Of a stretch of 64,000 nt of DNA, positions 16,495 to 33,222 are shown piece after piece. The stretch is from Modestobacter sp. VKM Ac-2982. Lineage in GTDB: Bacteria; Actinomycetota; Actinomycetes; Mycobacteriales; Geodermatophilaceae. The notes under the pieces are model-generated. The model saw only the letters and a program-made list of their open reading frames with translations, made no database searches and had not been told where the DNA came from. Both the position numbers and the translations under genes were made by a program. The DNA is taken from assembly GCF_026967935.1 (NCBI RefSeq), contig NZ_JAPVBL010000001.1:788082-852081 (forward strand), in the 5' to 3' direction. Position 1 is the stretch's first letter, and each line of letters starts with the position of its first letter.

Positions 16495-16523
16495 GCCGCT
16501 GACCTGCGCTCTCGCGCCTGTCG

Positions 16524-16557
16524 GGACCCCTGGTGTGAACGCGGTCACCGGGGGTCC
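16524..16557 (+). terminator. Strong hairpin terminator upstream of nuo
   Basis: GGACCCCTGGTG and CACCGGGGGTCC pair at 11 of 12 positions around a 10-nt loop. It would separate the upstream microprotein unit from the nuo promoter. Confidence 0.7.
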
Positions 16558-16581
16558 TGGTGTTCCGCCACCCCTTCGGCA

Positions 16582-16587
16582 TAGGCT
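16582..16587 (+). promoter_or_regulatory. Putative -10 box of the nuo promoter
   Basis: TAGGCT (TANNNT) predicts a start near 16594, immediately before the twin Rex-type operators. No clear -35 hexamer is seen. Confidence 0.45.
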
Positions 16588-16601
16588 TCGACCACTCGAC
16601 C

Positions 16602-16619
16602 TTGTGAACCAGTTCACAA
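16602..16619. promoter_or_regulatory. Rex-type operator 1 (nuo)
   Basis: TTGTGAA-CCAG-TTCACAA is a perfect match in both halves to the actinobacterial Rex operator (TTGTGAA-N4-TTCACAA); the dyad even extends one base each side. Rex is the NADH-sensing repressor, known in Streptomyces to bind upstream of nuoA and cyd genes. Placed just after the predicted transcription start, it would block nuo when NADH is low. Confidence 0.85.
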
Positions 16620-16624
16620 GCACA

Positions 16625-16642
16625 GGGTGAAGCAGTTCACAA
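16625..16642. promoter_or_regulatory. Rex-type operator 2 (nuo)
   Basis: GGGTGAA-GCAG-TTCACAA keeps the whole right half and 5 of 7 left-half bases of the Rex operator. Its centre is 23 bp from operator 1, about two helical turns, so two dimers could bind the same side. Confidence 0.65.
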
Positions 16643-16747: not shown

Positions 16748-17110
16748 ATGCTGTCGAACTACGTGCCCCTGGTCGGGCTCTTCGTGCTCGCCGCAGGCTT
16801 CGCGCTCTTCTCGGTCACCGCCGCTCCGTTCATCGGCCCGCGCCGCTACAACAGCGCGAAGGTGCAGGCCTACGAGTGCGGGATCGAACCGGTCGACCAG
16901 CCGCTCACCGGCGGACGGATCCCGGTCAAGTACTTCCTCACCGCGATGCTCTTCATCGTCTTCGACATCGAGATCGTCTTCCTCTACCCGTGGGCGGTCG
17001 CCAACGACGCGCTGGGCCTGTGGGGCCTCGGCGCGATGGCGGTCTTCATCGGCACCGTCTTCATCGCCTTCGTCTACGAGTGGCGCCGCGGGGGGCTCGA
17101 ATGGGACTGA
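16748..17110 (+). CDS. nuoA: NADH-quinone oxidoreductase subunit A
   Basis: NuoA, a small membrane subunit of complex I, 120 residues, three helices. The conserved loop YECGIEPV and the FDIEIVFLYPWA stretch, with acidic residues in helix 2, are typical. The ATG at 16748 has GGGAG upstream; a longer frame to 16664 has no site. It is the first gene of a complete nuoA-N operon. The 3' end overlaps a 24-codon micro-ORF that leads to nuoB. Confidence 0.97.
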   Translation: MLSNYVPLVGLFVLAAGFALFSVTAAPFIGPRRYNSAKVQAYECGIEPVDQPLTGGRIPVKYFLTAMLFIVFDIEIVFLYPWAVANDALGLWGLGAMAVFIGTVFIAFVYEWRRGGLEWD

Positions 17111-17175
17111 CCGACACGGGACCGACCGACACGCAACCGACCGACACGCGACCGACCACGGATGGGGGGCGCTGA
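17101..17175 (+). CDS. Micro-ORF bridging nuoA and nuoB (TDTxP repeats)
   Basis: A 24-residue open frame whose ATG lies inside the last codons of nuoA and whose TGA is separated by one base from the nuoB ATG. It encodes three TDT(G/Q/R)P repeats from a 15-bp tandem DNA repeat (about 17108-17157). It could carry ribosomes from nuoA to nuoB; the peptide itself may have no role. No homologue is known to me. Confidence 0.35.
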
Positions 17176-17176
17176 G

Positions 17177-17845
17177 ATGGGCCTGGAGGAGAAGCTGCCG
17201 AGCGGCGTCCTGCTGACCAGCGTCGAGAAGCTCGTCAACTGGACCCGCAAGTCCTCGCTCTGGCCGGCCACCTTCGGCCTGGCCTGCTGTGCGATCGAGA
17301 TGATGGCGTCCGGTGCCGGCCGCTACGACCTGGCCCGCTTCGGCATGGAGGTGTTCCGCGCCTCCCCGCGTCAGGCCGACCTGATGATCGTGGCCGGGCG
17401 GGTCAGCCAGAAGATGGCGCCGGTCCTCCGGCAGATCTACGACCAGATGCCCGAGCCGCGGTACGTGCTCGCCATGGGGGTCTGCGCCAGCTCCGGCGGC
17501 ATGTTCAACAACTACGCGATCGTGCAGGGCGTCGACCACATCGTCCCGGTGGACATGTACCTGCCCGGCTGCCCGCCGCGGCCGGAGATGCTCACCGACG
17601 CCATCCTCAAGCTGCACCACAAGATCCAGCACCAGCCGCTGGGCGCCAAGCGCGCCCGGGAGCAGGCCGAGGCCCGGGCCAACGGGACGGCGCCGGAGCT
17701 GCACCTCGCGATGCCCTCCAGCGTCCGGGCCGACCCGGCGGCGCGGCGCGCCTACGAGCAGGCCGCGGCCGAGGGCCGCACCGGCCAGTTCGCCATCGAG
17801 CAGCGCGGAGGCAACGCCGTCGTCCTGCCCGGAGCAGGTCGATGA
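17177..17845 (+). CDS. nuoB: NADH-quinone oxidoreductase subunit B
   Basis: NuoB holds the terminal Fe-S cluster N2 that passes electrons to quinone. It has 222 residues; cluster cysteines are in [10 protein letters not shown] (about 36-45), VCASSGGMF and GCPPRPE. The C-terminal about 55 residues form an Ala/Arg-rich extension seen in actinobacterial NuoB. I chose the ATG at 17177 ([10 protein letters not shown]) rather than the one at 17162 because GGGGGGC lies at good spacing before it. The stop overlaps nuoC as ATGA. Confidence 0.97.
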
Positions 17846-18561
17846 GCGACGAGGCCGGCTTCGGGGCCGCGACCGAGCCCGGCGGGGGGTTCCGCAAGGG
17901 CGCCTTCGGGGTCACCGGCAGCGGCGACACCTCCGGCTTCGGTGGCCTCGTCCGGGTCGAGCCCGGCGGCGCCGTCGCGCTGCACTCCACCGACCGGCCC
18001 TACGGCGGCTGGTTCGACGAGGTCACCGACGCGCTGATCGACGCGGTGGGCGAGGCCACGTACGCCGCCGCCGTCCACCGGGTCCTGGTCGACCGGGGCG
18101 AGATCACCTACTTCGTCGCCCGCGAGCACCTGCTCACCCTGGTCCAGGCGCTGCGGGACGACGAGTCGCTGCGCTTCGAGCTGTGCAGCAGCGTCTCCGG
18201 CGTCGACTACGCCGACAGCGGCGGCCCGGCCGCGACGCCCGACCGGCCCCGGCTGCACGTCGTCTACCACCTGACCTCGATGACCTACCGCCGCCGGATC
18301 CGGCTCGAGGTGGCCGTCACCGTCGAGGACCCGCACGTCCCGTCGGTGAGCTCCGTCTACCCCACGGCGGACTGGCACGAGCGGGAGGCCTGGGACATGT
18401 TCGGCATCGTCTTCGACGGCCACCCGGCGCTGACCCGGATCCTCATGCCCGACGACTGGGAGGGCCACCCCCAGCGCAAGGACTACCCGCTCGGCGGCGT
18501 CCCGGTCGAGTACAAGGGCGCCCAGATCCCCCCGCCCGACGAGCGCCGGAGCTACCGATGA
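17842..18561 (+). CDS. nuoC: NADH-quinone oxidoreductase subunit C
   Basis: NuoC, the 30-kDa peripheral-arm subunit, 239 residues. The motif [19 protein letters not shown] followed by [19 protein letters not shown] is diagnostic. The N-terminal 60 residues are a Gly-rich extension. Separate from nuoD here (not fused as in some enterics). ATGA overlaps with both nuoB and nuoD indicate strong coupling. Confidence 0.96.
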
Positions 18562-19880
18562 CGACGACGAGCGACCCGTACGCCGGCTCCCGGGAGACCA
18601 CCGAGGGCCGGGTCTACACGGTCACCGGCGGCGACTGGGACCAGACCTTCGGCGCCGACACCCACGACGACCAGCGGCTCGTGGTCAACATGGGCCCGCA
18701 GCACCCCTCGACCCACGGGGTGCTCCGGCTGGTGCTCGACCTCGAGGGCGAGACCGTCACCCAGGCCCGCGTCGTCATCGGCTACCTGCACACCGGCATC
18801 GAGAAGACGACGGAGTACCGCACCTGGACCCAGGGCACGACCCTGGTCACGCGGATGGACTACCTGGCCCCGCTGTTCAACGAGACCGCCTACTGCCTGG
18901 CCGTGGAGAAGCTGCTCGGCATCGAGGCGCCGCCCCGGGCACAGACCATCCGGGTGCTGGTCATGGAGCTCAACCGGATCGCCTCGCACCTGGTCGCGCT
19001 GGCCACCTTCGGCATGGAGATGGGCGCGCTCACCGGCATGACCAACGGCTTTCGGGAGCGGGAGCTGGTCCTCGACGTGCTCGAGGAGATCACCGGGCTG
19101 CGGATGAACCACGCCTACGTCCGCCCCGGCGGGCTGGCGCAGGACCTCCCCGAGGGAGCCGTCGAGTCCGTTCGGGAGCTGCTCGCCGTCCTCCCCGAGC
19201 GGGTCGCGGGCACCCACCGGCTGCTCACCGGCCAGCCGATCTGGCAGCGCCGGCTCAAGGACGTCGGCTACCTCGACCTCACCGGCTGCGTGGCCCTCGG
19301 CGTCACCGGCCCGGTGCTCCGCGCGGCCGGCCTGCCCTGGGACATGCGCAAGGTCGAGCCGTACCTGGGCTACGAGACCTACGACTTCGAGGTGCCGACG
19401 GCGGACACCTGCGACGCATGGGGCCGCTACCTGGTGCGGATGGGCGAGATCACCGAGTCCATCAAGATCATCGGCCAGGCGCTGGACCGGCTCGAGCCGG
19501 GGCCGGTGATGGTCGAGGACAAGAAGATCGCCTGGCCGGCGCAGCTGTCCCTCGGCGCCGACGGCATGGGCAACTCCCTGGACCACGTCCGGCACATCAT
19601 GGGCCAGTCGATGGAGGCCCTGATCCACCACTTCAAGCTGGTCACCGAGGGCTTCCGGGTGCCGGCCGGCCAGGTCTACACGGCGATCGAGTCCCCCCGC
19701 GGCGAGCTCGGCTACCACGTCGTCAGCGACGGCGGGACGCGCCCGTTCCGGGTGCACGTCCGTGACCCCAGCTTCGTCAACCTGCAGGCCACCGCGGCGA
19801 TGAGCGAGGGCGGCATGATCGCCGACGTCATCGCCGCGATCGCCTCGATCGACCCCGTGATGGGGGGAGTGGACCGCTGA
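18558..19880 (+). CDS. nuoD: NADH-quinone oxidoreductase subunit D
   Basis: NuoD, the 49-kDa subunit, forms the quinone pocket with NuoB. It has 440 residues. [21 protein letters not shown] (about 48-68) holds the conserved His, and the C-terminus ends ...DPVMGGVDR as in the family. The ATG at 18558 overlaps the nuoC stop; the open frame further upstream is shadow sequence. Overlaps nuoE by one base. Confidence 0.97.
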
Positions 19881-20884
19881 TGAGTGCTCTTCCCGGTTCC
19901 TACGAGGGGACGGCGGTCACCGGGCTGGACTCCAGCCCGGTCGAGCCGGCCGCCCCGGACCTGCCACCGCTGACCGAGCAGACCGAGGCCGAGGCCCGCG
20001 AGCTGATGGCCCGCTACCCGCAGGAGCGGTCGGCGCTGCTGCCGATGCTGCACCTGGTCCAGTCCGTGCAGGGCTACGTGTCGCCCGAGGGCGTCGGCTT
20101 CTGCGCCCGGCTGCTCGGGCTGACCAAGGCCGAGGTGGGCGCGGTCGCGACCTTCTACACGATGTACAAGCGGCACCCGACGGGCAAGCACCTGGTCAGC
20201 GTCTGCACCAACACGCTCTGCGCCGTCCTGGGTGGGCAGCAGATCTACGACGCCGTCTCCGCCGACCTCGGCGTCGGCCACGACCAGACCGCGCCGGACG
20301 GCTCGGTCACCCTCGAGCACGCCGAGTGCCTGGCCGCCTGCGACTACGCGCCCGTGGTCACCGTCGACTACGAGTTCTACGACCAGCAGGACGTCGAGTC
20401 GGCCCGCGCGCTGGTCACCGCACTGCGGATGGGGGAGAAGCCGCCGCCCACCCGCGGGGCCCCGCTGACCGACTTCCGCGGCGTCTCCCGCCAGCTGGCC
20501 GGCTTCTCCCAGCACCCGGACCTGGAGAGCGAGCGAGCGGCGATCGACGCCCCGTCGGCCGGTGTGCCGACCCTGGTCGGCGTGCGGCTGGCCGTCGAGC
20601 GGGGCGAGGTGGCGCCGCCGATGCAGGCACCCGAGCCCGAGGCCGCGCCCGAGCCGGACGTCGAGCCGGCAGGGAGCGCGGGCGAGACGCCGTCCGAGCA
20701 GGCCGCCGACACCGCCGTCGCCTCCGCCGACACCCCGGCCGAACGGGCCGGTGCGGTGCAGCACCACCCGGACGCCCCCGAGCCCGCCGGCCGCCAGCCG
20801 GCCGAGCGCGGCCGCGAGGGCACCGACACCCCGCCCACCGAGTCCGGCGCCGGGCAGAACAGCTCGATCGAGCGGGAGGCCTGA
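19880..20884 (+). CDS. nuoE: NADH-quinone oxidoreductase subunit E with long acidic tail
   Basis: NuoE is the 24-kDa thioredoxin-like 2Fe-2S subunit (cluster N1a) of the NADH dehydrogenase module. It has 334 residues. Cluster ligands are in SVCTNTLC (about 112-117) and ECLAACDYAP (about 153-157). The fold ends near residue 235; the last about 100 residues are a Pro/Ala/Glu/Asp-rich, probably disordered extension ending SSIEREA, absent from enteric NuoE. TGATG start overlap with nuoD; nuoF begins 1 nt after the stop. Confidence 0.95.
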   Translation: MSALPGSYEGTAVTGLDSSPVEPAAPDLPPLTEQTEAEARELMARYPQERSALLPMLHLVQSVQGYVSPEGVGFCARLLGLTKAEVGAVATFYTMYKRHPTGKHLVSVCTNTLCAVLGGQQIYDAVSADLGVGHDQTAPDGSVTLEHAECLAACDYAPVVTVDYEFYDQQDVESARALVTALRMGEKPPPTRGAPLTDFRGVSRQLAGFSQHPDLESERAAIDAPSAGVPTLVGVRLAVERGEVAPPMQAPEPEAAPEPDVEPAGSAGETPSEQAADTAVASADTPAERAGAVQHHPDAPEPAGRQPAERGREGTDTPPTESGAGQNSSIEREA

Positions 20885-20885
20885 G

Positions 20886-22211
20886 ATGCCCCTGACCCCC
20901 GTCCTCACCGCGCGCTTCGACGCGCCCCGCTCCTGGACGCTGGAGACCTACGAACGCCTCGACGGCTACCGTGCGCTCCGCTCGGCCCTGGAGATGGCGC
21001 CGGACGACGTCGTCTCCCTCGTCAAGGACTCCGGACTGCGCGGCCGCGGCGGCGCCGGCTTCCCGACCGGGTTGAAGTGGAGCTTCATCCCGCAGCCCAA
21101 GCCGGGGGAGACCCCGACCGGCCCGGCGGCGGCGCCGAAGTACCTGGTGGTCAACGCCGACGAGGGCGAGCCGGGCACCTGCAAGGACCTGCCGCTGATG
21201 ATGGCCGACCCGCACTCGCTGGTGGAGGGCGTGATCATCACCGCCTACGCGATCCGCTCGCACTTCGCCGTCATCTACGTCCGCGGTGAGGCGGTGCACG
21301 CCCACCGCCGGCTGATGGCCGCCGTGCAGGAGGCGTACGCCGCCGGCTACCTCGGCAGCGACGTGCTGGGGTCGGGCTACGACCTCGAGCTGGTGGTGCA
21401 CGCCGGCGCCGGGGCCTACATCTGCGGCGAGGAGACCGCGCTGCTGGACTCCCTGGAGGGCTACCGCGGCCAGCCCCGGCTCAAGCCGCCGTTCCCCGCC
21501 GTCGCAGGCCTCTACGGCTCCCCGACGGTGATCAACAACGTGGAGACGTTGGCCAGCGTGCCGTACGTGGTCCGTGGTGGCGCCGAGTGGTTCAAGAGCA
21601 TGGGCCCGGAGAAGTCGCCCGGCCCGAAGATCTACTCGCTGTCGGGTCGGGTGGTGCACCCCGGCCAGTACGAGGCCCCGATGGGGACGACGATGCGCGA
21701 GCTGCTGGCCATGGCCGGCGGCGTCCGGCCCGGTCACGAGCTGAAGTTCTGGACGCCGGGCGGCTCCTCGACCCCGTACTTCACCGCCGAGCACCTCGAC
21801 GTCCCGCTGGACTTCGACTCGGTCGCGGCGGCCGGCTCGATGCTGGGCACCACCGCGCTGATGGTCTTCGACGAGACCGACTCGATCGTCGAGGCGACCC
21901 TGCGGTTCACCGAGTTCTACGCGCACGAGAGCTGCGGCAAGTGCACCCCCTGCCGGGAGGGCACCTACTGGCTGGTCCAGATCCTGGAACGGCTGGTGCA
22001 CGGGCAGGGCCGGGCCGCCGACCTCGACCTGCTCACCGACACCTGCGACAACATCCTGGGCCGTTCGTTCTGCGCCCTCGGCGACGGTGCGACCAGCTGC
22101 ATCGCCAGCTCCCTGAAGTACTTCAAGGACGACTACGTCGCGCTGCTGCCGGCCGAGGAGCAGGCCCGCCTCGGTCGTTCGCTGCGGCTCGAGCCGGTTG
22201 GAGCAGCCTGA
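20886..22211 (+). CDS. nuoF: NADH-quinone oxidoreductase subunit F
   Basis: NuoF binds NADH and FMN and carries a 4Fe-4S cluster. It has 441 residues. [16 protein letters not shown] (about 50-65) and [12 protein letters not shown] are the FMN/NADH motifs; [13 protein letters not shown] (about 348-360) and the later Cys in [10 protein letters not shown] hold the cluster. The ATG at 20886 begins [11 protein letters not shown]; upstream reading frame is shadow of nuoE. TGATG overlap with nuoG. Confidence 0.97.
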
Positions 22212-24730
22212 TGACCCTCACCCCGGCCACCCCCGAGCCCGCGCCGGCGCTGCCGCCGGGCGCGCCCGGCCCGCACACCCGACCCGACGCCGTGCACTGC
22301 ACCATCGACGGTTTCCCGGTCGCCGTGCCGAAGGGCACGCTGATCATCCGGGCCGCCGAGCAGATCGGCGTGCAGATCCCGCGGTTCTGCGACCACCCGC
22401 TGCTCGACCCGATCGGCGCCTGCCGGCAGTGCCTGGTGGAGGTGGAGGGGCAGCGCAAGCCGGTGGCCTCCTGCACCACCCCGGTGACCCCTGACATGGT
22501 GGTGCAGACCCAGCTGACCAGCCCGGTCGCCGACAAGGCCCAGCAGGGCACGATGGAGCTGCTGCTGGTCAACCACCCGCTGGACTGCCCGGTCTGCGAC
22601 AAGGGCGGGGAGTGCCCGCTGCAGAACCAGGCGATGAGCAACGGGCGGGCCGAGTCCCGGTTCGTGGAGACCAAGCGCACCTTCCCCAAGCCGCTGCCGA
22701 TCAGCTCGCAGGTGCTGCTGGACCGCGAGCGCTGCGTGCTCTGCGCCCGCTGCACCCGGTTCAGCCAGCAGGTGGCCGGCGACCCGTTCATCGAGCTTTT
22801 CGAGCGCGGCGCGTTGGAGCAGGTGGCGATCTACGAGGACGAGCCGTTCGAGTCCTACTTCTCCGGCAACACCACCCAGATCTGCCCGGTCGGCGCGCTG
22901 ACCAGCGCCACCTACCGGTTCCGCGCCCGCCCGTTCGACCTGCGCAGCGAGCCCAGCGTCTGCGAGCACTGCGCCAGCGGCTGCGCCCAGCGCACCGACT
23001 ACCGGCGCGGCACGGTGACCCGGCGACTGGCCGGGGAGGACCCGGCGGTCAACCAGGAGTGGAACTGCGACAAGGGCCGGTACGCCTTCCGCTACGCCAG
23101 CAGCAACGAACGGCTGATGACGCCGCTGGTCCGCCGGGACGGTGAGCTGCAGCCGGCGTCGTGGCCGGAGGCCTGGGCCGCCGCGGCCGAGGGGCTGCGG
23201 GCGGCGCGCGCGGCCGGCGGGGTCGGGGTGCTGCCCGGTGGCCGGCTGACCGTCGAGGACGCCTACGCCTACGCCGCCTTCGCCCGGGTGGCGCTGGGCA
23301 CCAACGACGTCGACGCCCGGGCCCGTGCGCACTCCGCCGAGGAGCTGGACTTCCTGGCCACGCACGTCGCCGGCACCGCCCCCGGGGCCGGTGGGGTCAG
23401 CTACGACGACCTGACCGCAGCCCCCGCGGTGCTGCTGGTCGGCTTCGAGCCGGAGGAGGAGTCGCCGATCGTCTTCCTGCGGCTGCGCCGGGCCGTCCGG
23501 ACGGCGGGCCTACAGGTGTTCGACGTCGCCCCCTTCGGCACCCGGGCCGCGGAGAAGCTGCAGGCCACCGTGCTGACCACCGTCCCGGGCCAGGAGGCCC
23601 AGCTGCTCCGCGACCTGGCCGCCAACCCGGTGGACGGCGTGCTGGCCGACGCGGCCGTCGCGCTGTTCCGCCCGGGCGCCGTCATCCTGGCCGGGGAGCG
23701 GCTGGCCGAGCTGCCGGGCGGCTTCTCCGCGGTCAGCGCCCTCGCCGCCGAGACCGGCGCCCGGATCGGCTGGGTGCCCCGCCGGGCGGGGGAGCGGGGC
23801 GCGGTCGAGGCCGGCGCGCTGCCGACCCTGCTCCCCGGTGGCCGCACCGTCGCCAACGCCGCCGACCGGGCCGCCGTCGCCCAGCGCTGGGGAGCCGACG
23901 TCCCGGCGACCCTGGGGCGCGACCTCACCGGCATCCTCACCGCCGTGCGCGACGGTGCCCTCGCCGGGCTGCTGGTCGGGGGCGTCGACCCCGCCGACCT
24001 GCCCGACCCGCTGCTCGCCGAGCAGGCGCTGCAGACCGCCCGCTTCGTGGTCAGCCTGGAGCTGTTCCCGACCGCGGTCACCGCGCACGCCGACGTCGTC
24101 CTCCCGGTCGCCGCCGCCCCGGAGAAGGCCGGCAGCTACCTGGACTGGGAGGGACGGGTCCGCTCGTTCGACGCGACCCTGCACGGCTCCGGGCAGCTCA
24201 CCGACGGCCGGGTGCTCCAGGGCCTGGCCGAGCACCTCGGCGTCGACCTGCGGGTGGGCTCGGTGACCGAGGTACGTGCCCAGCTGACCGCCCTCGGCGG
24301 CGCCGCGCAGGCACCCGCCGGCACCGGGGCCGACGTCGCCCCGGCACCGTTGCCGGAGCTCGCCGACGACGAGGCGGTGCTCGCCTCCTGGCGGCAGCTG
24401 GTCGACGTCGGGACGCTGCAGCGGGAGGAGCCGGCGCTGGCCGGCACCGCCCGGCCCCCGGTCGCCCGCCTGGGCAAGGAAGCCGCCCGCCGTCTCGGCG
24501 TGGCCGACGGCGACCCGCTCACCGTCACCGGCCCGGCCGGGGCGGTCACCCTGCCGGTGCGGCTGGTCGAGATGCCCGACGGGGTGGTCTGGCTGCCGAT
24601 GCGCTCGCCGGGCAGCGAGGTCCGCACCCAGCTCGGCGCCGGCCCCGGCTCCGTCGTCCGGCTGGCGGGTCCGCCGCCCACCCCGGCCGGCGCGACGTCC
24701 GTCTCGAGCCTGCGGGGAGCCCAGGAGTGA
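22211..24730 (+). CDS. nuoG: NADH-quinone oxidoreductase subunit G
   Basis: NuoG, the large Fe-S subunit, 839 residues. N-terminal 2Fe-2S ligands ([20 protein letters not shown]), His-Cys cluster ([17 protein letters not shown]), a further 4Fe-4S set (CVLCARC...QICPVGALT) and the extra N7 cluster (CEHCASGC...WNCDKGR) are all visible, N7 being found only in some bacteria. The C-terminal half is molybdopterin-oxidoreductase-like and is more divergent and Ala-rich. TGATG overlap with nuoF; GTGA overlap into nuoH. Confidence 0.96.
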
Positions 24731-26166
24731 CCGTCTTCGCCGCCGCCGACCAGCCGACGCTGGTGGACTTCGGGAACGACGTCTGGTGGATCGTGCTCAT
24801 CAAGATCGTCGGCATCTTCGGGGTGCTGGTGCTGATGACGCTGTTCGCCATCGTCTTCGAGCGCAAGGTCGTCGCCCGGATGCAGCAGCGGATCGGCCCC
24901 AACCGGGTCGGGCCGCGCGGCTACCTGCAGAGCCTCGCCGACGGCCTGAAGCTGGCGTTCAAGGAGGACATCATGCCGGCGCTGGCCGACAAGCCGGTGT
25001 ACTTCCTGGCGCCGGTCATCGCCACCATCCCGGCCTTCCTGGCCTTCTCCGTCATCCCGCTCGGCCCGACGGTCAGCATCTTCGGCGAGCGCACGCCCCT
25101 GCAGCTCGTCGACTCCCCGATCGGGGTCCTCATCGTGCTGGCCGCCTCGGCGATGGGCGTCTACGGCATCGTGCTCGGTGGCTGGGCATCCGGGTCGACC
25201 TACCCGCTGCTCGGCTCGCTGCGCAGCGCGGCGCAGATGATCAGCTACGAGATCGCGATGGGCCTGTCGATCGTCGCGGTGTTCCTCTACGCCGGTTCGA
25301 TGTCGACCTCGGAGATCGTGGCCGCCCAGGCCGACGGCACCGAGCTGTCCTTCTTCGGCCTGGAGTTCACCGGGCCCAGCTGGTACGCCGTCCTGCTGCC
25401 GGTCTCCTTCGTCATCTACGTCATCGCCGTGGTGGGCGAGACCAACCGGGCGCCCTTCGACCTCCCCGAGGCCGAGAGCGAGCTGGTCGGCGGTTTCCAC
25501 ACCGAGTACTCGTCGCTGAAGTTCGCGCTGTTCTTCCTGGCCGAGTACATCAACATCGTCACCGTCTCCGCGCTGGCCGCCACGCTGTTCCTCGGCGGCT
25601 GGCGGGCGCCCTGGCCGATCTCGATCTGGGACGGCGCCAACACCGGGTGGTGGCCGCTGTTGTGGTTCTTCGCCAAGGTCGTCGTCGCGCTGTTCTTCTT
25701 CGTCTGGCTCCGCGGCACGCTTCCCCGGCTCCGTTACGACCAGTTCATGCGCTTCGGCTGGAAGGTGCTGGTCCCGGTCGGGCTGGTCTGGATCCTCGTG
25801 GTGGCGACGCTGCGCGCCGTCGCCCGGGAGTCCGACCTGGACGCCGGTCAGGTCGCCGTCTTCGTCGGGGTGCCGATCGCCTTGGTGCTGCTGGGCGGGC
25901 TGCTGCTGGCCTCCCGGATGCGCAACCGGGACACCCGGGTCGCCGCCCGCGAGGCCGCCGCCGGCGGGCCGGCGCCGGCCGAGCCGCAGGTGCTGGACCC
26001 CCAGGGCCGGGACCGGGCCTCCGGCGGGTTCCCGGTGCCGCCGATGGACCTGGTCGTACCGCCCTCGCCACGGCTGCGCCGCCGCGAGTCCGTCGGCGCC
26101 GGGACCGTGGTCGGCACCGGCCGGCGCAGCAGCTCGACCACGCCTGAGGAGACCGACGATGTCTGA
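24727..26166 (+). CDS. nuoH: NADH-quinone oxidoreductase subunit H
   Basis: NuoH, the membrane subunit that forms the quinone entry site, 479 residues with about eight to nine helices. [20 protein letters not shown] (about 46-65) and the acidic loop [19 protein letters not shown] (about 238-256) are family marks. Residues about 405-479 are a Pro/Arg/Ala-rich cytoplasmic tail not present in E. coli. The GTG at 24727 overlaps the nuoG stop as GTGA. Confidence 0.96.
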
Positions 26167-26839
26167 GCCCACCCCGCCGCCCACCGCCGAGCCGACGTCG
26201 GGCGCCAGCCCGGCCCGGCGCGAGGGCACGGCCATCGCCCGGCAGTCCTCCGAGGCACCGTCCAACACGGCCCCCGGCAAGCGGTCCAGCTGGTTGCCCG
26301 GGCCCGCCCAGGGGTTCGGCGTCACCTTCGCCACGATGTTCAAGAAGGTGACCACTGAGGAGTACCCCGAGGTCCCGAAGCAGACCAAGCCGCGCTACCA
26401 CGGCCGGCACGTGCTCAACCGGCACCCCGACGGCCTGGAGAAGTGCGTGGGCTGCGAGCTCTGTGCCTGGGCCTGCCCGGCCGACGCCATCTACGTCGAG
26501 GGCGGCGACAACACCGAGGACGCCCGCTTCTCCCCGGGTGAGCGCTACGGCGCCGTCTACCAGATCAACTACCTGCGCTGCATCTTCTGCGGGCTGTGCA
26601 TCGAGGCCTGCCCCACCCGGTCGCTGACGATGAGCAACGACTTCGAGCTCGCCGACGACGACCGCCAGGCGCTGATCTACACCAAGGAACAGCTGATGGC
26701 CCCGCTGCTGCCCGGGATGGAGCAGCCCCCGCACCCGATGCGGCTGGGCGAGAACGAGCAGGACTACTACGTGCGCGACCCCAAGGCGGCGCCCCCGACG
26801 CAGCAGGCGGCCGAACCGGTGATCGAGGAACGGGCATGA
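26159..26839 (+). CDS. nuoI: NADH-quinone oxidoreductase subunit I
   Basis: NuoI carries clusters N6a and N6b. It has 226 residues. Two 4Fe-4S motifs are plain: [13 protein letters not shown] (about 95-108) and [13 protein letters not shown] (about 140-152). The first about 55 residues form a Pro/Thr/Ser-rich extension. Overlaps nuoH by 8 nt and nuoJ by ATGA. Confidence 0.97.
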
Positions 26840-27741
26840 GCCCCCTGCACATGGGCGTCCTGGCCGCGGCGGCGGACACCGAGGTGGTCATCGGCACCGG
26901 GGAGACGATCGTCTTCTGGGTGCTCGCCCCGGTCGCCCTGGCCGGCGCGCTGGGGATGGTGCTGTCCCGCAACGCCGTGCACTCCGCGCTGTGGCTGGTC
27001 GCCACCATGCTCAGTCTGGGCGTCTTCTACGTCGTCCAGGAGGCGCCGTTCCTCGGTGCGGCGCAGATCATCGTCTACACCGGCGCGATCATGATCCTGT
27101 TCCTCTTCGTGCTGATGCTGGTGGGCCGGGAGACGTCGGACTCGGTCGTCGAGACGCTGCGGGGGCAGCGGGTGGCGGCGATCGTGCTGGGCATCGGGTT
27201 CGCCGGGCTGGTCGGCGCCGGCATCGCGCGCGCCACCGAGGACCTGCCGGTGGTCGGGCTCACGGCGGTGCAGGGCACCGTGGGCGGGCCGGCCGCCGGC
27301 AACGTCGAGGCGATCGCCGCCGTCCTGTACGGCCGGTTCGTGCTGGCCTTCGAGGTCACCGGTGCGCTGCTCATCGTGGCCGCCGTCGGGGCGTTGCTGC
27401 TGACCCACGCCGAACGGGAGCCCGGCACCGCGCGCAGCCAGAAGGAGCGCTCCCGGGCCAGGTTCCTCACCGACCGGCCGCAGACGCTGCCCGGGCCCGG
27501 CGTCTACGCACGCGCCAACTCCATCGCCGCGCCCGGCCGGCTCCCTGACGGCAGCCCCGCGCCGAGCAGCTTCGCCACCGGGGTCGAGCCCGTGCAGGTC
27601 GACGAGCTGCCGCGCACCGGCAGCGTCGGCGCCGAGCGCGAGGGGCTGCCGCACGCCGGGGGCACCGACGCGGCGCTCGGCACGATCGGCGGCGGCACCA
27701 CCGGACCGGTCCCCGGCAGCGGAGAGGACGCTCCCCGATGA
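26836..27741 (+). CDS. nuoJ: NADH-quinone oxidoreductase subunit J with extended tail
   Basis: NuoJ, a membrane subunit, 301 residues. Five helices lie in the first about 195 residues, including the motif [18 protein letters not shown] of helix 3. A hydrophilic, Pro/Gly-rich tail of about 105 residues ([16 protein letters not shown]...) follows, making it nearly twice the enteric length. Coupled by ATGA to nuoI and nuoK. Confidence 0.95.
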
Positions 27742-28037
27742 CCATCACGAACTACCTGGTGCTCGCCGCGATCCTGTTCACCATCGGCGCGGTCGGCGTG
27801 CTGGTGCGGCGCAACGCCATCGTGGTGTTCATGTGCATCGAGCTGATGCTCAACTCGGTGAACCTCACCCTGATCACCTTCGCCCGGAGCACCGGGACGG
27901 TCGAGGGCCAGGTCATCGCCCTGTTCGTGATGGTCGTCGCCGCCGCGGAGGTGGTCGTCGGCCTGGCCATCATCATGTCGATCTACCGCACCCGCCGCTC
28001 GGCCTCCGTCGATGACGTCAACCTGCTGAAGTACTGA
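27738..28037 (+). CDS. nuoK: NADH-quinone oxidoreductase subunit K
   Basis: NuoK, 99 residues, three helices; the conserved membrane glutamates are in [11 protein letters not shown] (about 34-44) and [11 protein letters not shown] (about 70-80), needed for proton pumping. Related to MrpC. ATGA overlap with nuoJ; a 19-nt gap precedes nuoL. Confidence 0.97.
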
Positions 28038-28056
28038 GCGGATCGGGGACCCAGGA

Positions 28057-29973
28057 GTGAACGAGGTCGTGCCTGCGTCGATGCCGGTCGACGGGCTGTT
28101 GTCCGTCACGTGGCTGGTGATCGTGCTGCCGCTGGCCGGCGCCGCGCTGCTGCTGCTGGGTGGGCGGCGCACCGACCGGTGGGGGCACCTGCTGGCCACC
28201 GGGACGGTGGTCGCCGCCTTCGCCCTCGCCGTGGCCTGCACCGTCGCGCTGACCGACCGCGCCGGCCGCGCGGTGAGCCTGGACCTGTTCACCTTCATCG
28301 ACACCGGCAGCCTCGACGTCACCGCCGGGCTCCTCCTGGACCCGCTGTCGGCGGTCTTCGTCCTGCTGATCACCGGGGTCGGCGCGCTGATCCACGTCTA
28401 CTCGATCGGCTACATGGCGCACGACCCCGGCCGCCGCCGGTTCTTCGCCTACCTCAACCTCTTCGTCGCGGCGATGCTGCTGCTGGTACTGGGCAACAGC
28501 TACGTGGCCCTCTACGTGGGCTGGGAGGGCGTCGGCCTGGCGTCCTACCTGCTCATCGCGTTCTGGCACACCCGCCCGGCAGCGGCCACGGCGGCCAAGA
28601 AGGCCTTCCTGATGAACCGGGTCGGGGACGTCGGCCTGGCGCTGGCGATCTTCATCATGTTCGCCCAGCTCGGGACGACGTCCTACGCCGGCGTCTTCGG
28701 CGCGGTCGGGCTGCTCGCCGGCGGCACCGTCACCGCGATCGGGCTGCTCCTGCTGCTGGGTGCCTGCGGCAAGTCCGGTCAGTTCCCGCTGCAGGCCTGG
28801 CTGCCCGACGCGATGGAGGGCCCGACCCCGGTCTCGGCGCTGATCCACGCCGCCACGATGGTGACCGCCGGGGTCTACCTGATCGCCCGGAGCGCCCCGC
28901 TCTACGACGCCACGCCCACCGCGCGCACCGTCGTCCTGGCCGTCGGCGCGGTCACCCTGCTGATCGGGGCGATCGCCGGCTGCGCCCACGACGACATCAA
29001 GAAGGTGCTGGCCTACTCCACGGTCAGCCAGATCGGCTACATGTTCCTGGCCGTCGGGCTGGGCCCGGTCGGCTACGCGGCCGCCATCGCCCACCTGCTG
29101 GCCCACGGCTTCTTCAAGGCCGGGCTGTTCCTCGGCGCCGGCTCGGTGATGCACGCGATGGACGACACCGTCGACATGCGCCGCTTCGGCGGCCTGGCCA
29201 GGCGGCTGCCGATCACCTTCGTCACCTTCGGGCTGGGCTACCTGGCGTTGATCGGCTTCCCGTTCCTGTCCGGCTGGTGGACCAAGGACGCGATCATCGA
29301 GGTGGCGCTGGACCGCGGCGGCTGGTCGGGCTGGCTGCTCGGCGGGGTCGCCGTCCTCGGCGCCGGGCTCACCGCCTTCTACATGACCCGGCTGATGCTG
29401 ATGACCTTCTTCGGCCGGCCACGGTGGGAGGACGGCGTGCACCCGCACGAGGCGCCACCGTCCATGACGGCGCCGATGGTGCTGCTCGCCGTCGGGTCCG
29501 TCGCCGCGGGCTTCCTGCTGGTGGCGGTCTTCCCGCTGAGCGGCTGGCTGGAGCCGGTGTTCGGGGAACCGGAGGAGGCCGCGCACCTGGTGTCGCCGTT
29601 GGTGGTCAGCATCGTCGTCACCGTCGTCGTCGCCCTCGGGGCGCTCACCGCCTGGCTGTACGTCGGTCGCCGCGAGGTGCCGACGACGGCGCCGGCCCGG
29701 GTCTCGCCGGTGGTCACCGCCGCCCGCCGCGGCCTCTACGCCGACACGGTCAACGAGTCGCTCGTCATGCGCCCGGGGATGTGGCTGACCCGCGCGCTGG
29801 TCTGGCTGGACGCCCGCGGGGTGGACGGCGCGGTCAACGGCGCGGCCGCGGCCCTGGGCGGCGGATCGGCCCGGCTGGGGCGGGTGCAGACCGGGTTCGT
29901 CCGCAGCTACGCCCTCGGCATCCTCGGCGGCGCGGTGCTGGTCGCCGGCGCGCTGCTCGCGGTGACGGCATGA
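28057..29973 (+). CDS. nuoL: NADH-quinone oxidoreductase subunit L
   Basis: NuoL, the largest antiporter-like proton-pumping subunit, 638 residues, about 16 helices. The signature GWEGVGLASYLLI (about 152-164), the lysine helix around LMNRVGDVG, and LIHAATMVTAGVYLI are clear. I keep the GTG at 28057, with GGGG and AGGA upstream, but an ATG at 28081 is possible. The stop overlaps a 15-codon micro-ORF that runs to nuoM. Confidence 0.96.
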   Translation: MNEVVPASMPVDGLLSVTWLVIVLPLAGAALLLLGGRRTDRWGHLLATGTVVAAFALAVACTVALTDRAGRAVSLDLFTFIDTGSLDVTAGLLLDPLSAVFVLLITGVGALIHVYSIGYMAHDPGRRRFFAYLNLFVAAMLLLVLGNSYVALYVGWEGVGLASYLLIAFWHTRPAAATAAKKAFLMNRVGDVGLALAIFIMFAQLGTTSYAGVFGAVGLLAGGTVTAIGLLLLLGACGKSGQFPLQAWLPDAMEGPTPVSALIHAATMVTAGVYLIARSAPLYDATPTARTVVLAVGAVTLLIGAIAGCAHDDIKKVLAYSTVSQIGYMFLAVGLGPVGYAAAIAHLLAHGFFKAGLFLGAGSVMHAMDDTVDMRRFGGLARRLPITFVTFGLGYLALIGFPFLSGWWTKDAIIEVALDRGGWSGWLLGGVAVLGAGLTAFYMTRLMLMTFFGRPRWEDGVHPHEAPPSMTAPMVLLAVGSVAAGFLLVAVFPLSGWLEPVFGEPEEAAHLVSPLVVSIVVTVVVALGALTAWLYVGRREVPTTAPARVSPVVTAARRGLYADTVNESLVMRPGMWLTRALVWLDARGVDGAVNGAAAALGGGSARLGRVQTGFVRSYALGILGGAVLVAGALLAVTA

Positions 29974-30017
29974 CCACCCCTGACACCCCCACCCGCGGAG
30001 AGGCGGCCCAGCCGTGA
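29970..30017 (+). CDS. Micro-ORF bridging nuoL and nuoM
   Basis: A 15-codon frame (MTTPDTPTRGEAAQP) whose ATG overlaps the nuoL stop (ATGA) and whose TGA overlaps the nuoM GTG (GTGA). It would keep ribosomes moving over a 40-nt gap. GGAGAGG within it also serves as nuoM ribosome site. Confidence 0.4.
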   Translation: MTTPDTPTRGEAAQP

Positions 30018-31678
30018 GCGACGTCCCCTGGCTGGTCCTGATGATCGCCGTCCCGGCGGTCGGTGCGGCGGTGGTCGCGGCGCTGCCGGCCGCCCGGGAG
30101 GCGCTGGCCCGCCAGCTCGCCCTGGCGGTGAGCCTGCTGGTCCTGCTCCTCGCCGTGCTCACCACGATCGCCTTCGACCCCGGTGGTGACCGGTTCCAGC
30201 TGACCACCGCGGTGGCCTGGATCCCCGACTTCGGGGTCGAGTTCGCCCTCGGCGTCGACGGGATCGCGCTGTCGATGCTGCTGCTGATCGGCGTGCTGGT
30301 GCCGGTCGTCGTCGGCGCCTCGTGGCGGGACACCCCGATGCCCCGGCCGGGCCGCCCGGCGCGGTCGATGACCGCCTTCTGGGCCTGGCTGCTGCTGCTC
30401 GAGTCGCTGATGGTCGGGGTCTTCGCCGCCACCGACGTCTTCCTGTTCTACGTCTTCTTCGAGGCCATGCTGGTGCCGATGTACTTCCTGATCGGCAGCT
30501 TCGGGGGCCCGAACCGGCAGTACGCCGCGGTGAAGTTCTTCCTGTACAGCCTGCTGGGCGGGCTGGTCATGCTCGCCTCGGTGATCGGGCTGTACGTGGT
30601 CAGCAACTCCCAGCTGGGCGAGGGCACCTTCGCCTTCGACGCGCTGCGCCAGCTGGAGATCGACCCGAACGTGCAGAAGCTGCTGTTCGCCGGCTTCTTC
30701 CTCGCCTTCGCGATCAAGGCGCCGCTGGTGCCCTTCCACACCTGGCTGCCCGACTCCGGTGCCGAGGCGCCCATCGGCGGCGCCGTGCTCCTGGTGGGCG
30801 TGCTCGACAAGGTCGGCACCTTCGGCTTCCTGCGCTACTGCCTGCCGCTGTTCCCCGACGCCTCCCGCGACCTCGCCCCCTGGGTGCTGGTGCTGGCCGT
30901 GGCCGGGATCATCTACGCGGCGCTGCTCGCCGTCGGGCAGAGCGACATGAAGCGGCTGGTGTCCTACACCTCGATCGCCCACTTCGGCTTCATCGCGCTG
31001 GGCATCTTCGCCTTCACCACCGAGGCGGCCACCGGCGCGGTGCTGTACATGGTCAACCACGGCATCGCGACCGGCCTGCTGTTCATCGTCGTCGGCATGG
31101 TCATCGCCCGCGGCGGCTCCCGGCAGATCCGCGACTACGGCGGGCTGGCGGCCAAGGCGCCGCTGCTGGCCGGGGTCTTCCTGCTCGCCGGGCTGGCGTC
31201 GCTGGCGCTGCCGGGCACCAACAGCTTCGTCAGCGAGTTCCTCGTGCTCATCGGGGCGTTCCCGACCCGCCCGGTCTTCACGATCATCGCCACCGTCGGC
31301 ATCGTGCTGGCCGCCCTCTACGTGCTGCTGATGTACCAGCGGGTGATGCACGGACCGCCGCGCGGCGTGCTGCTGGTCGACGAGGACGACGCCGGGGACG
31401 GCGAGACCCTGCGGCCGGCCTCCGGCACGGGGGGCGCGACCGCGGTGCTGGAGGCCCCGGCGCGGGCGCGGGTGCTGGCGGTCCGCGACCTCTCTCGCCG
31501 GGAGATCGCCGTCGTCACGCCGCTGGTCGCCCTGATCCTGGTGCTCGGGGTGTACCCGCAGCCGCTGATCGACCTGGTCAGCCCGGCGGTCGAGGCGACC
31601 ATGACCGACATCGGCGTCGACCCCGGGGGCAGCACGCCGGCTGCACCGGGCAGCACCGGGACCGGGGGGACCGACTGA
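30014..31678 (+). CDS. nuoM: NADH-quinone oxidoreductase subunit M
   Basis: NuoM, an antiporter-like proton-pumping subunit, 554 residues, about 14 helices. The glutamate-bearing helix FFEAMLVPMYFLIG (about 154-167), the lysine region AFAIKAPLVPFHTWLPDSGAEAP and YTSIAHFGF are diagnostic. A long loop near residues 455-495 is Ala/Gly/Asp-rich. GTG start; one-base overlap with nuoN. Confidence 0.97.
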   Translation: MSDVPWLVLMIAVPAVGAAVVAALPAAREALARQLALAVSLLVLLLAVLTTIAFDPGGDRFQLTTAVAWIPDFGVEFALGVDGIALSMLLLIGVLVPVVVGASWRDTPMPRPGRPARSMTAFWAWLLLLESLMVGVFAATDVFLFYVFFEAMLVPMYFLIGSFGGPNRQYAAVKFFLYSLLGGLVMLASVIGLYVVSNSQLGEGTFAFDALRQLEIDPNVQKLLFAGFFLAFAIKAPLVPFHTWLPDSGAEAPIGGAVLLVGVLDKVGTFGFLRYCLPLFPDASRDLAPWVLVLAVAGIIYAALLAVGQSDMKRLVSYTSIAHFGFIALGIFAFTTEAATGAVLYMVNHGIATGLLFIVVGMVIARGGSRQIRDYGGLAAKAPLLAGVFLLAGLASLALPGTNSFVSEFLVLIGAFPTRPVFTIIATVGIVLAALYVLLMYQRVMHGPPRGVLLVDEDDAGDGETLRPASGTGGATAVLEAPARARVLAVRDLSRREIAVVTPLVALILVLGVYPQPLIDLVSPAVEATMTDIGVDPGGSTPAAPGSTGTGGTD

Positions 31679-33222
31679 TGGGCGCCATCGAGGCACCGGA
31701 CCTGTCGTACGCGGCGCTCGCGCCGCTGCTGTTCGTCTTCGGTGCTGCGTGCACCGGCGTCCTGGTCGAGGCGTTCGTCCCCCGGGCGGTGCGCCACCCC
31801 GTGCAGGTGGCGATCGCCCTGGTCGGCACGATCGGGGCCCTCGTCGCCACGCTGCTGCTGGCCGGCACCGAGGAGATCACCGCCGCCGGGGCGCTGGCCG
31901 TCGACGGACCGGCCCTGTTCCTGCAGGGGACGATCGCCGTCCTGGGGGCGCTGTCGGTGCTGCTGTTCAGCGAGCGCGCCCTGGACCCGGCCCGTTCCGC
32001 GTTCGTCGCCGCCGCCGCGGTGCCGGCCGGCAGCGTCCGGGACCGGGAGCTGGCCACCTCCGAGCGGGTGCAGACCGAGATCTACCCGCTGGCCACCTTC
32101 GCCATCGGCGGCATGATGCTGTTCACCGCCGCCAACGACCTGCTGATCATGTTCGTGGCGCTCGAGGTGCTCAGCCTGCCGCTGTACCTGCTGTGCGGGC
32201 TCGCCCGCCGCCGGCGGCTGCTGTCCCAGGAGGCGGCGGTCAAGTACTTCCTGCTCGGTGCCTTCGCCTCGGCGTTCTTCCTGTACGGGCTCGCCCTCGT
32301 CTACGGGGCCACCGGCAGCGTGCGGCTGTCCGACGTCCGGGTGGCCGTGGTCACCGAGGGCGGGAGCGCCCTCATGGTGCTCGGACTCGGCCTGCTCGTC
32401 GTCGGGTTGATGTTCAAGGCCAGCGTCGCGCCGTTCCACAGCTGGACCCCGGACGTCTACCAGGGCGCACCCACGGCGGTGACCGCCTTCATGGCCGCGG
32501 CCACCAAGGTCGCCGCCTTCGGGGCGGTGCTGCGGCTGCTCTACGTCGCCTTCGGCACCGCCGACTGGACCTGGCGCCCGCTCATCTACGCCCTGGCGAT
32601 CGTCTCCATGGTCGTCGGCGCGGTGCTCGGACTGACCCAGACCGACGTCAAGCGGATGCTGGCCTACTCCTCGATCGCCCACGCCGGCTTCCTGCTCACC
32701 GGGGTCATCGGCCTCGGCCCGGACGGCACCGGCTACGGGCTGGCCGCGACGATGTTCTACCTGCTGGCCTACGGCCTCACCACGCTCGGCGCGTTCGGGC
32801 TGCTCACCCTCGTCCGGGACGGCGACGGCGAGGCCACGCACCTCTCCCAGTGGGCCGGCCTGGCCCAGCGCTCCCCACTCGTGGCCGCCCTGATGAGCTT
32901 CTTCCTGCTGGCCCTCGCCGGGATCCCGCTCACCAGCGGGTTCACCGGCAAGTTCGCCGTCTTCCGGGCCGCGATCGAGGTCGGGGCCTGGCCGCTGGTC
33001 GTCACCGCCCTGGTCGCGAGCGCGATCGCGGCGTTCTTCTACCTGCGGGTGATCGTGCTCATGTACTTCTCCGACCCGGCGCCCGACGGCCCCACGGTCG
33101 GCGTCCCCGGACTGCCGACGACGATCGTGCTGGCGGTCACCGCGGCGGCCACGCTGGTGCTCGGCGTCCTGCCGGGGTCGGTGCTGGACCTGGCCGAGGC
33201 GGCGGCGGTGTTCGTCGGCTGA
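31678..33222 (+). CDS. nuoN: NADH-quinone oxidoreductase subunit N
   Basis: NuoN, the third antiporter-like subunit, 514 residues, about 14 helices. FVALEVLSLPLYLLCG (about 157-172), KASVAPFHSWTPDVYQGAPT (about 247-266) and YSSIAHAGFLL are characteristic. The ATG at 31678 shares its A with the nuoM stop (TGATG). It closes the operon; 82 bp separate it from the polyprenyl synthase. Confidence 0.97.
   Translation: MGAIEAPDLSYAALAPLLFVFGAACTGVLVEAFVPRAVRHPVQVAIALVGTIGALVATLLLAGTEEITAAGALAVDGPALFLQGTIAVLGALSVLLFSERALDPARSAFVAAAAVPAGSVRDRELATSERVQTEIYPLATFAIGGMMLFTAANDLLIMFVALEVLSLPLYLLCGLARRRRLLSQEAAVKYFLLGAFASAFFLYGLALVYGATGSVRLSDVRVAVVTEGGSALMVLGLGLLVVGLMFKASVAPFHSWTPDVYQGAPTAVTAFMAAATKVAAFGAVLRLLYVAFGTADWTWRPLIYALAIVSMVVGAVLGLTQTDVKRMLAYSSIAHAGFLLTGVIGLGPDGTGYGLAATMFYLLAYGLTTLGAFGLLTLVRDGDGEATHLSQWAGLAQRSPLVAALMSFFLLALAGIPLTSGFTGKFAVFRAAIEVGAWPLVVTALVASAIAAFFYLRVIVLMYFSDPAPDGPTVGVPGLPTTIVLAVTAAATLVLGVLPGSVLDLAEAAAVFVG

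Follow-up and report, generated by a model that had tools for sequence, protein, structure and literature searches.

A conserved candidate Rex operator with a young second copy at the nuo promoter of Modestobacter sp. VKM Ac-2982

Operator-like sites upstream of the nuo operon

The stretch of DNA analyzed here (the window; 64 kb, C1:788082-852081) carries a complete respiratory nuoA-N operon, in which all 14 subunits of complex I, nuoA to nuoN, are encoded at 16748-33222. The first gene, nuoA, scores 188.5 bits on NCBIfam model NF005922 (cut-off 155), and each of the other 13 subunits (B, D, F, G, J, M and C, E, H, I, K, L, N) likewise scores above its curated cut-off. The promoter region on the 5' side of this operon contains two operator-like sites, designated ROP1 and ROP2, and several neighboring elements. 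The features are as follows.

16523..16558, + strand: hairpin of 13 pairs that encloses the upstream dyad; may terminate the genes before it
16534..16549, no strand: upstream dyad TGTGA-N6-TCACC, TGTGAACGCGGTCACC; CRP-like or weak Rex-like, outside the main finding
16582..16587, + strand: -10-like hexamer TAGGCT, 14 nt before ROP1, with conserved spacing
16602..16619, no strand: candidate Rex operator 1 (ROP1), TTGTGAA-CCAG-TTCACAA, TTGTGAACCAGTTCACAA; perfect palindromic half-sites, 0/14 mismatches
16625..16642, no strand: ROP2, second Rex-like site, GGGTGAA-GCAG-TTCACAA, GGGTGAAGCAGTTCACAA; 12/14 half-site bases, 2 mismatches
16748..17110, + strand: nuoA, first gene of the operon, start ATG at 16748
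17162..33222, + strand: nuoB to nuoN, 13 subunits matched in NCBIfam
G000:C8:498030-498045 (L012, L326), elsewhere in the genome: copy of the pattern GTGTGAACNNGRTCAC before hppA (H+-pyrophosphatase), from a pattern search

The original prediction had described a perfect two-half Rex match, a second site that keeps 12 of 14 half-site bases, a distance of 23 bp between their centers and a TAGGCT box ahead of the pair, and each of these was recovered when the sites were scored and measured against the Rex consensus TTGTGAANNNNTTCACAA. ROP1 and ROP2 are the only matches with up to three mismatches in the 64-kb window; 100 shuffles of the window produced a mean of 0.11 such matches, and in none of the 100 did two occur together. 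With independent bases at the genome composition, 0.00016 perfect sites would be expected per genome, and any particular 100 bp would contain a site with at most two mismatches with a probability of 8e-6. In the whole genome, 13 sites had up to three mismatches (6 for the same pattern read backwards as a control), and only three had up to two: ROP1, ROP2 and one upstream of rex. The sites with exactly three mismatches (10 observed) are close in number to the 7.5 expected and therefore carry little weight by themselves; when their neighbors were examined, the one at hppA alone stood out.

The candidate -10 box was assigned solely from its conservation, because a sigma-70 promoter scan of the nuo upstream region found no promoter. 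A hexamer of the form TA[GC][ACG][CGT]T lies 12–16 nt 5' of the operator in 99 of 103 genomes of the family, at exactly 14 nt in 60 of them, with the variants TAGACT, TAGGCT, TAGAGT, TAGGGT and TACAGT.

The rex gene and conservation of the operator

Many Gram-positive bacteria gauge their NADH through Rex. The original prediction held that the window contains no rex gene, and this is correct: a genome-wide search, proposed with it as a check, found a single ortholog at C1:778298-778987, 9.1 kb to the left of the window and ~26 kb from nuoA, and the genome's only PF06971 match (C1:778322, E 2.9e-17) is the one there. The encoded protein scores 324 bits against the Rex equivalog model NF003992 (cut-off 226), and its residues 9 to 208 of 229 align with solved Rex structures; of the eight distinct solved sequences matched, seven are named Rex and one is an 'AT-rich DNA-binding protein'. 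Upstream of this gene lies an operator-like site of its own, TTGTTCAGGCGTTCACAA; the footprinted operator of Streptomyces avermitilis rex is TTGTGCACGCGTTCACAA (PMC5355995).

PF06971 was matched in 110 of 112 family genomes. In the 31 rex loci examined (the present genome and 30 relatives, drawn from these 110), a site with up to three mismatches was present upstream of rex in every case, and all 31 sites keep TTGT and TTCACAA.

The operator at nuo was then followed through the family. Of the 112 genomes searched, nuoA could be placed in 104, with a query that was one base out of frame, and the upstream DNA was readable in 103; G068, in which the nuoA match begins 288 bases into the contig, was left out of the 104, and G087 was judged from 307 bases of upstream sequence. 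All 103 genomes carry the operator, 97 without a mismatch and 6 with one. The half-sites are constant while the spacer and flanks vary, and the only operator position that varies is position 2, in those 6. Furthermore, when 209 permuted half-sites were put through the same upstream search at up to one mismatch, none was found in any family genome.

The distance to nuoA is not uniform. In 39 of the 103 genomes the operator stands at most 300 bases from nuoA, and in the remaining 64 it is found ~1.35–1.6 kb upstream. A first scan, limited to 450 bases upstream of nuoA, had recovered the 39, and the missing site in 64 genomes first seemed to count against Rex because PF06971 is matched in 110 of 112; this objection was dropped when the remaining genomes were read 1.5 to 1.7 kb upstream and the operator was found there. 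In the one such genome tested (G024), a gene of the geranylgeranyl-reductase family lies between the operator and nuoA, matching TIGR02032 above its cut-off and the MenJ model NF045655 below its cut-off. An example of the far arrangement is seen at L258:317-1609. The best match to the geranylgeranyl-reductase family gene in the present genome lies elsewhere and is only 37 percent identical.

The comparison was then widened to 80 named actinobacterial nuo loci, the best of 593 and family members included, with mostly 2.5 kb of upstream DNA. A site with up to two mismatches was present in 67 of these best 80; in the other 13, no such site was found in the upstream DNA scanned, which for one of the 13 came to 860 bases. 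These results indicate that the same operator precedes nuo in the relatives of this bacterium, and that only the weaker extra copy is peculiar to a few species.

Origin and fate of the second site

When the promoter is compared with itself at a shift of 23 bases, identity begins at the third base of ROP1 and extends one base beyond the end of the site. The duplicated stretch contains one change, in the spacer, and ROP2 carries its two mismatches at positions 1 and 2, which fall outside the stretch. This pattern points to a short tandem duplication, by which ROP2 is read as a recent 23-bp tandem copy of ROP1. Assuming 10.5 bp per turn, ROP2 would face ~70 degrees round the helix from ROP1.

The promoter alignment shows a gap of 21–22 bases at ROP2 in 11 of the 17 Modestobacter genomes with the operator next to nuoA. 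The six carriers of the insert (the present genome, G000, with G101, G102, G103, G090 and G086) form one clade with a support of 0.856 in a tree of nuoA-C from 13 Modestobacter and 2 outgroup genomes; the tree is unrooted and its outgroups fell apart, and no more than this support value for the clade of six was taken from it. ROP1 is perfect in all six. ROP2 is intact, with two mismatches, in four (G000, G101, G102 and G103) and has decayed in G086 (four mismatches) and G090 (five). Across the relatives ROP2 is not conserved, being intact in 4 of the 21 Modestobacter genomes with readable upstream DNA. Its sequence is identical in these four, whose promoters differ at 4 to 9 positions per 200 bases, and identity at this level of divergence is no proof of selection. 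Among the four, the G103 promoter (L020) is nearest to that of G102 (L017), with 4 differences in 200, whereas the G103 nuoA-C genes group with G086, which hints at a possible recombination of the promoter.

Is the tandem arrangement special to this clade? Two operator cores 4 to 34 bases apart were found in 9 of 396 phylum genomes sampled, the present one included, and the backwards-read control pattern gave no such tandem in the same 396. Four of the eight other tandems (L297-L300) are followed by one gene's length and then by nuoA and nuoB, and in three of these four the intervening gene belongs to the geranylgeranyl-reductase family. Of the remaining four, two (L230 and L232) adjoin pyridine-nucleotide oxidoreductase-like genes, with matches below the curated cut-offs, and beside the other two (L228 and L231) the chosen frames matched no NCBIfam model. 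The frame chosen beside L234 had no NCBIfam match either, and its operon was recognized by NuoA and NuoB. In Lentzea albidocapillata, two perfect sites lie 32 bp apart before nuoA. Within the family, a metagenome-assembled genome (G073, record L066, MAG MGR_bin242) carries the same Rex-like site twice, at a distance of 24 bp, ~1.4 kb before nuoA. The pair in G073 looks like an independent, recent duplication.

Since such pairs recur with varied spacing, the tandem form is no special machine of the Modestobacter clade. The twin is thus real as DNA, and it is young, neither conserved nor unique. The original prediction had singled out the tandem pair as the notable part of the locus; the pair itself stands, but its distinctiveness does not, as other tandem pairs precede nuo operons in the phylum.

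A phrase search on two or tandem Rex sites led to a paper on Streptococcus mutans. At Staphylococcus aureus ldh1, two Rex sites precede one gene, as in the nuo pair, and two shifted complexes were reported there, although the gene and the bacterium are different (PMC2883068). At S. avermitilis cydA1, the protected region lies around and downstream of the start, which resembles the arrangement predicted here, and two retarded bands were reported; on the other hand, cydA1 has a half-site beside a full site, whereas Modestobacter nuo has two full dyads (PMC5355995).

Does ROP2 have a function at all? It could be a functionless remnant of the local 23-bp duplication, with nuo regulated by ROP1 alone, and we consider the odds of this to fall just short of even. 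The match to ROP2 was lost in two of the six clade genomes (four and five mismatches) in which ROP1 is perfect throughout, a single operator is the usual state outside the clade, and the mismatches of ROP2 fall where the duplicated stretch ends, all of which would suit a remnant. Set against this are the 12 of 14 bases that ROP2 retains in four genomes, the recurrence of tandem pairs elsewhere, and the S. avermitilis probes, in which affinity was higher with one or two mismatches than with three (PMC5355995). From the sequence comparisons, then, ROP2 is probably either a weaker auxiliary site or a remnant, and as a bound site it would probably be a lower-affinity auxiliary one that slightly strengthens or grades the repression exerted at ROP1.

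Alternative readings and the predicted control of complex I

A third element lies upstream of the pair. The dyad at 16534-16549 is centered 69 bp upstream of ROP1, and its form TGTGA-N6-TCAC is kept in 15 of the 17 Modestobacter genomes with the operator next to nuoA; by eye, it is kept in G091, G094 and G100 despite the loss of the surrounding hairpin. The RNA of 16515-16575 folds at -30.4 kcal/mol (z -1.55), a stability equaled or exceeded by 14 of 200 shuffles, and a scan of the hairpin region for a terminator with a T-run found none. The pattern GTGTGAACNNGRTCAC occurs twice in the genome, at this dyad and upstream of hppA, and 0 times for the control. At hppA, a Rex-like site with 2–3 mismatches was found in 11 of 20 Modestobacter loci (23 genomes searched), always with the inner T replaced by A; Rex also targets hppA in S. 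avermitilis (PMC5355995), and the hppA site of the present genome is weak. The dyad may belong to Crp, or it may be a weak site for Rex. It is conceivable, though unlikely, that the nuo promoter of this clade works as a multi-operator redox switch, with a strong ROP1, a weaker abutting ROP2 and the dyad as a third site, which would give a graded NADH response or combine redox with cAMP-type signals for two proton pumps.

Could ROP1 and its copy belong to a different regulator? The Rex operator contains within it the consensus TGTGA-N6-TCACA, which is that of mycobacterial Crp (PMC7739888). The genome also encodes a protein of the Crp family, and the neighboring dyad fits the Crp consensus at 9 of 10 bases, so that a CRP/GlxR-type regulator has something in its favor. 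Nevertheless, we regard this assignment as improbable. Constraint in the 103 family sites is not limited to TGTGA-N6-TCACA: all 103 keep four bases that Crp leaves unspecified, A7 and T12 on the inside and T1 and A18 on the outside. Moreover, the left half of the rex-upstream sites is TTGTTC or TTGTGC, which breaks TGTGA. The fixed A7 and T12 and the broken TGTGA together favor Rex over Crp at ROP1. Weaker still is the notion that the inverted repeats are not operators and act instead as a terminator or as hairpins in RNA or DNA, which we hold to be very improbable. A strong hairpin does exist just upstream (16523-16558), but the half-site letters are fixed in 103 genomes, beyond what pairing would require and save for position 2 in 6, and the terminator scan found no T-run terminator.

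ROP1 is thus almost certainly a landing site of Rex, as judged from its sequence and conservation. The prediction that nuo is under Rex-type NADH/NAD+ control has strong support because the genome has a rex ortholog, this rex has an operator-like site of its own, and all 103 family genomes with readable upstream DNA carry the operator at nuo. Taken jointly, we assign a probability of about 0.94 to the reading that ROP1 is the Rex operator of nuo, mediating a repression that NADH would relieve, with ROP2 as a recent duplicate and probable auxiliary site. The original prediction, that a pair of Rex dimers controls nuoA-N according to NADH/NAD+, fares well as regards Rex control and less well as regards the pair, given that ROP2 has two mismatches, is confined to one clade and has decayed in two of its six members.

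How would such a switch operate? Assuming that transcription starts ~7–8 nt past the -10-like box, ROP1 would span about +7 to +24. At low NADH/NAD+, ROP1 would be occupied by a Rex dimer, which immediately 3' of the -10 box would cover the start point or lie directly beyond it and so block transcription of nuoA-N. As NADH accumulates, it would bind Rex, Rex would leave the operator, and complex I would be made and re-oxidize the NADH. That Rex binds, that it responds to NADH, where transcription starts and what ROP2 may contribute are all inferred from the sites and genes described above.

This scheme can be set beside S. avermitilis, in which Rex binds the nuoA1 promoter, so that Rex sites upstream of nuoA are known in Streptomyces, as the original prediction had noted, and in which NADH lowers the binding of Rex to its target promoters (PMC5355995). 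The repressor family, the 18-bp consensus, the operon and an operator upstream of rex are alike in the two systems. The placement differs: for nuoA1 of S. avermitilis, there is a single operator, which has two mismatches and falls in a region protected from -42 to -16, not downstream of the -10 box (PMC5355995), whereas Modestobacter nuo has a perfect operator downstream of its -10-like box and a second copy 23 bp on. Downstream positions are found at other S. avermitilis promoters, with protection from -3 to +25 at cydA1 and from +108 to +135 at wblE, and for these two the authors propose that Rex blocks the progress of the polymerase (PMC5355995). On the other hand, cydA, a target in S. avermitilis (PMC5355995), shows no site with up to five mismatches in the 1.5 kb scanned upstream of it here.

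A literature search for Geodermatophilaceae together with Rex found no matching paper. The link between Rex and complex I is itself known, having been measured in S. avermitilis (PMC5355995). The wide presence of the operator (103 of 103 readable family genomes; 67 of 80 named loci, the best 80 of 593) suggests that this control of complex I is old and strongly kept, and the occurrence of intact and decayed ROP2 in sister species amounts to a small natural experiment on what a second operator contributes.
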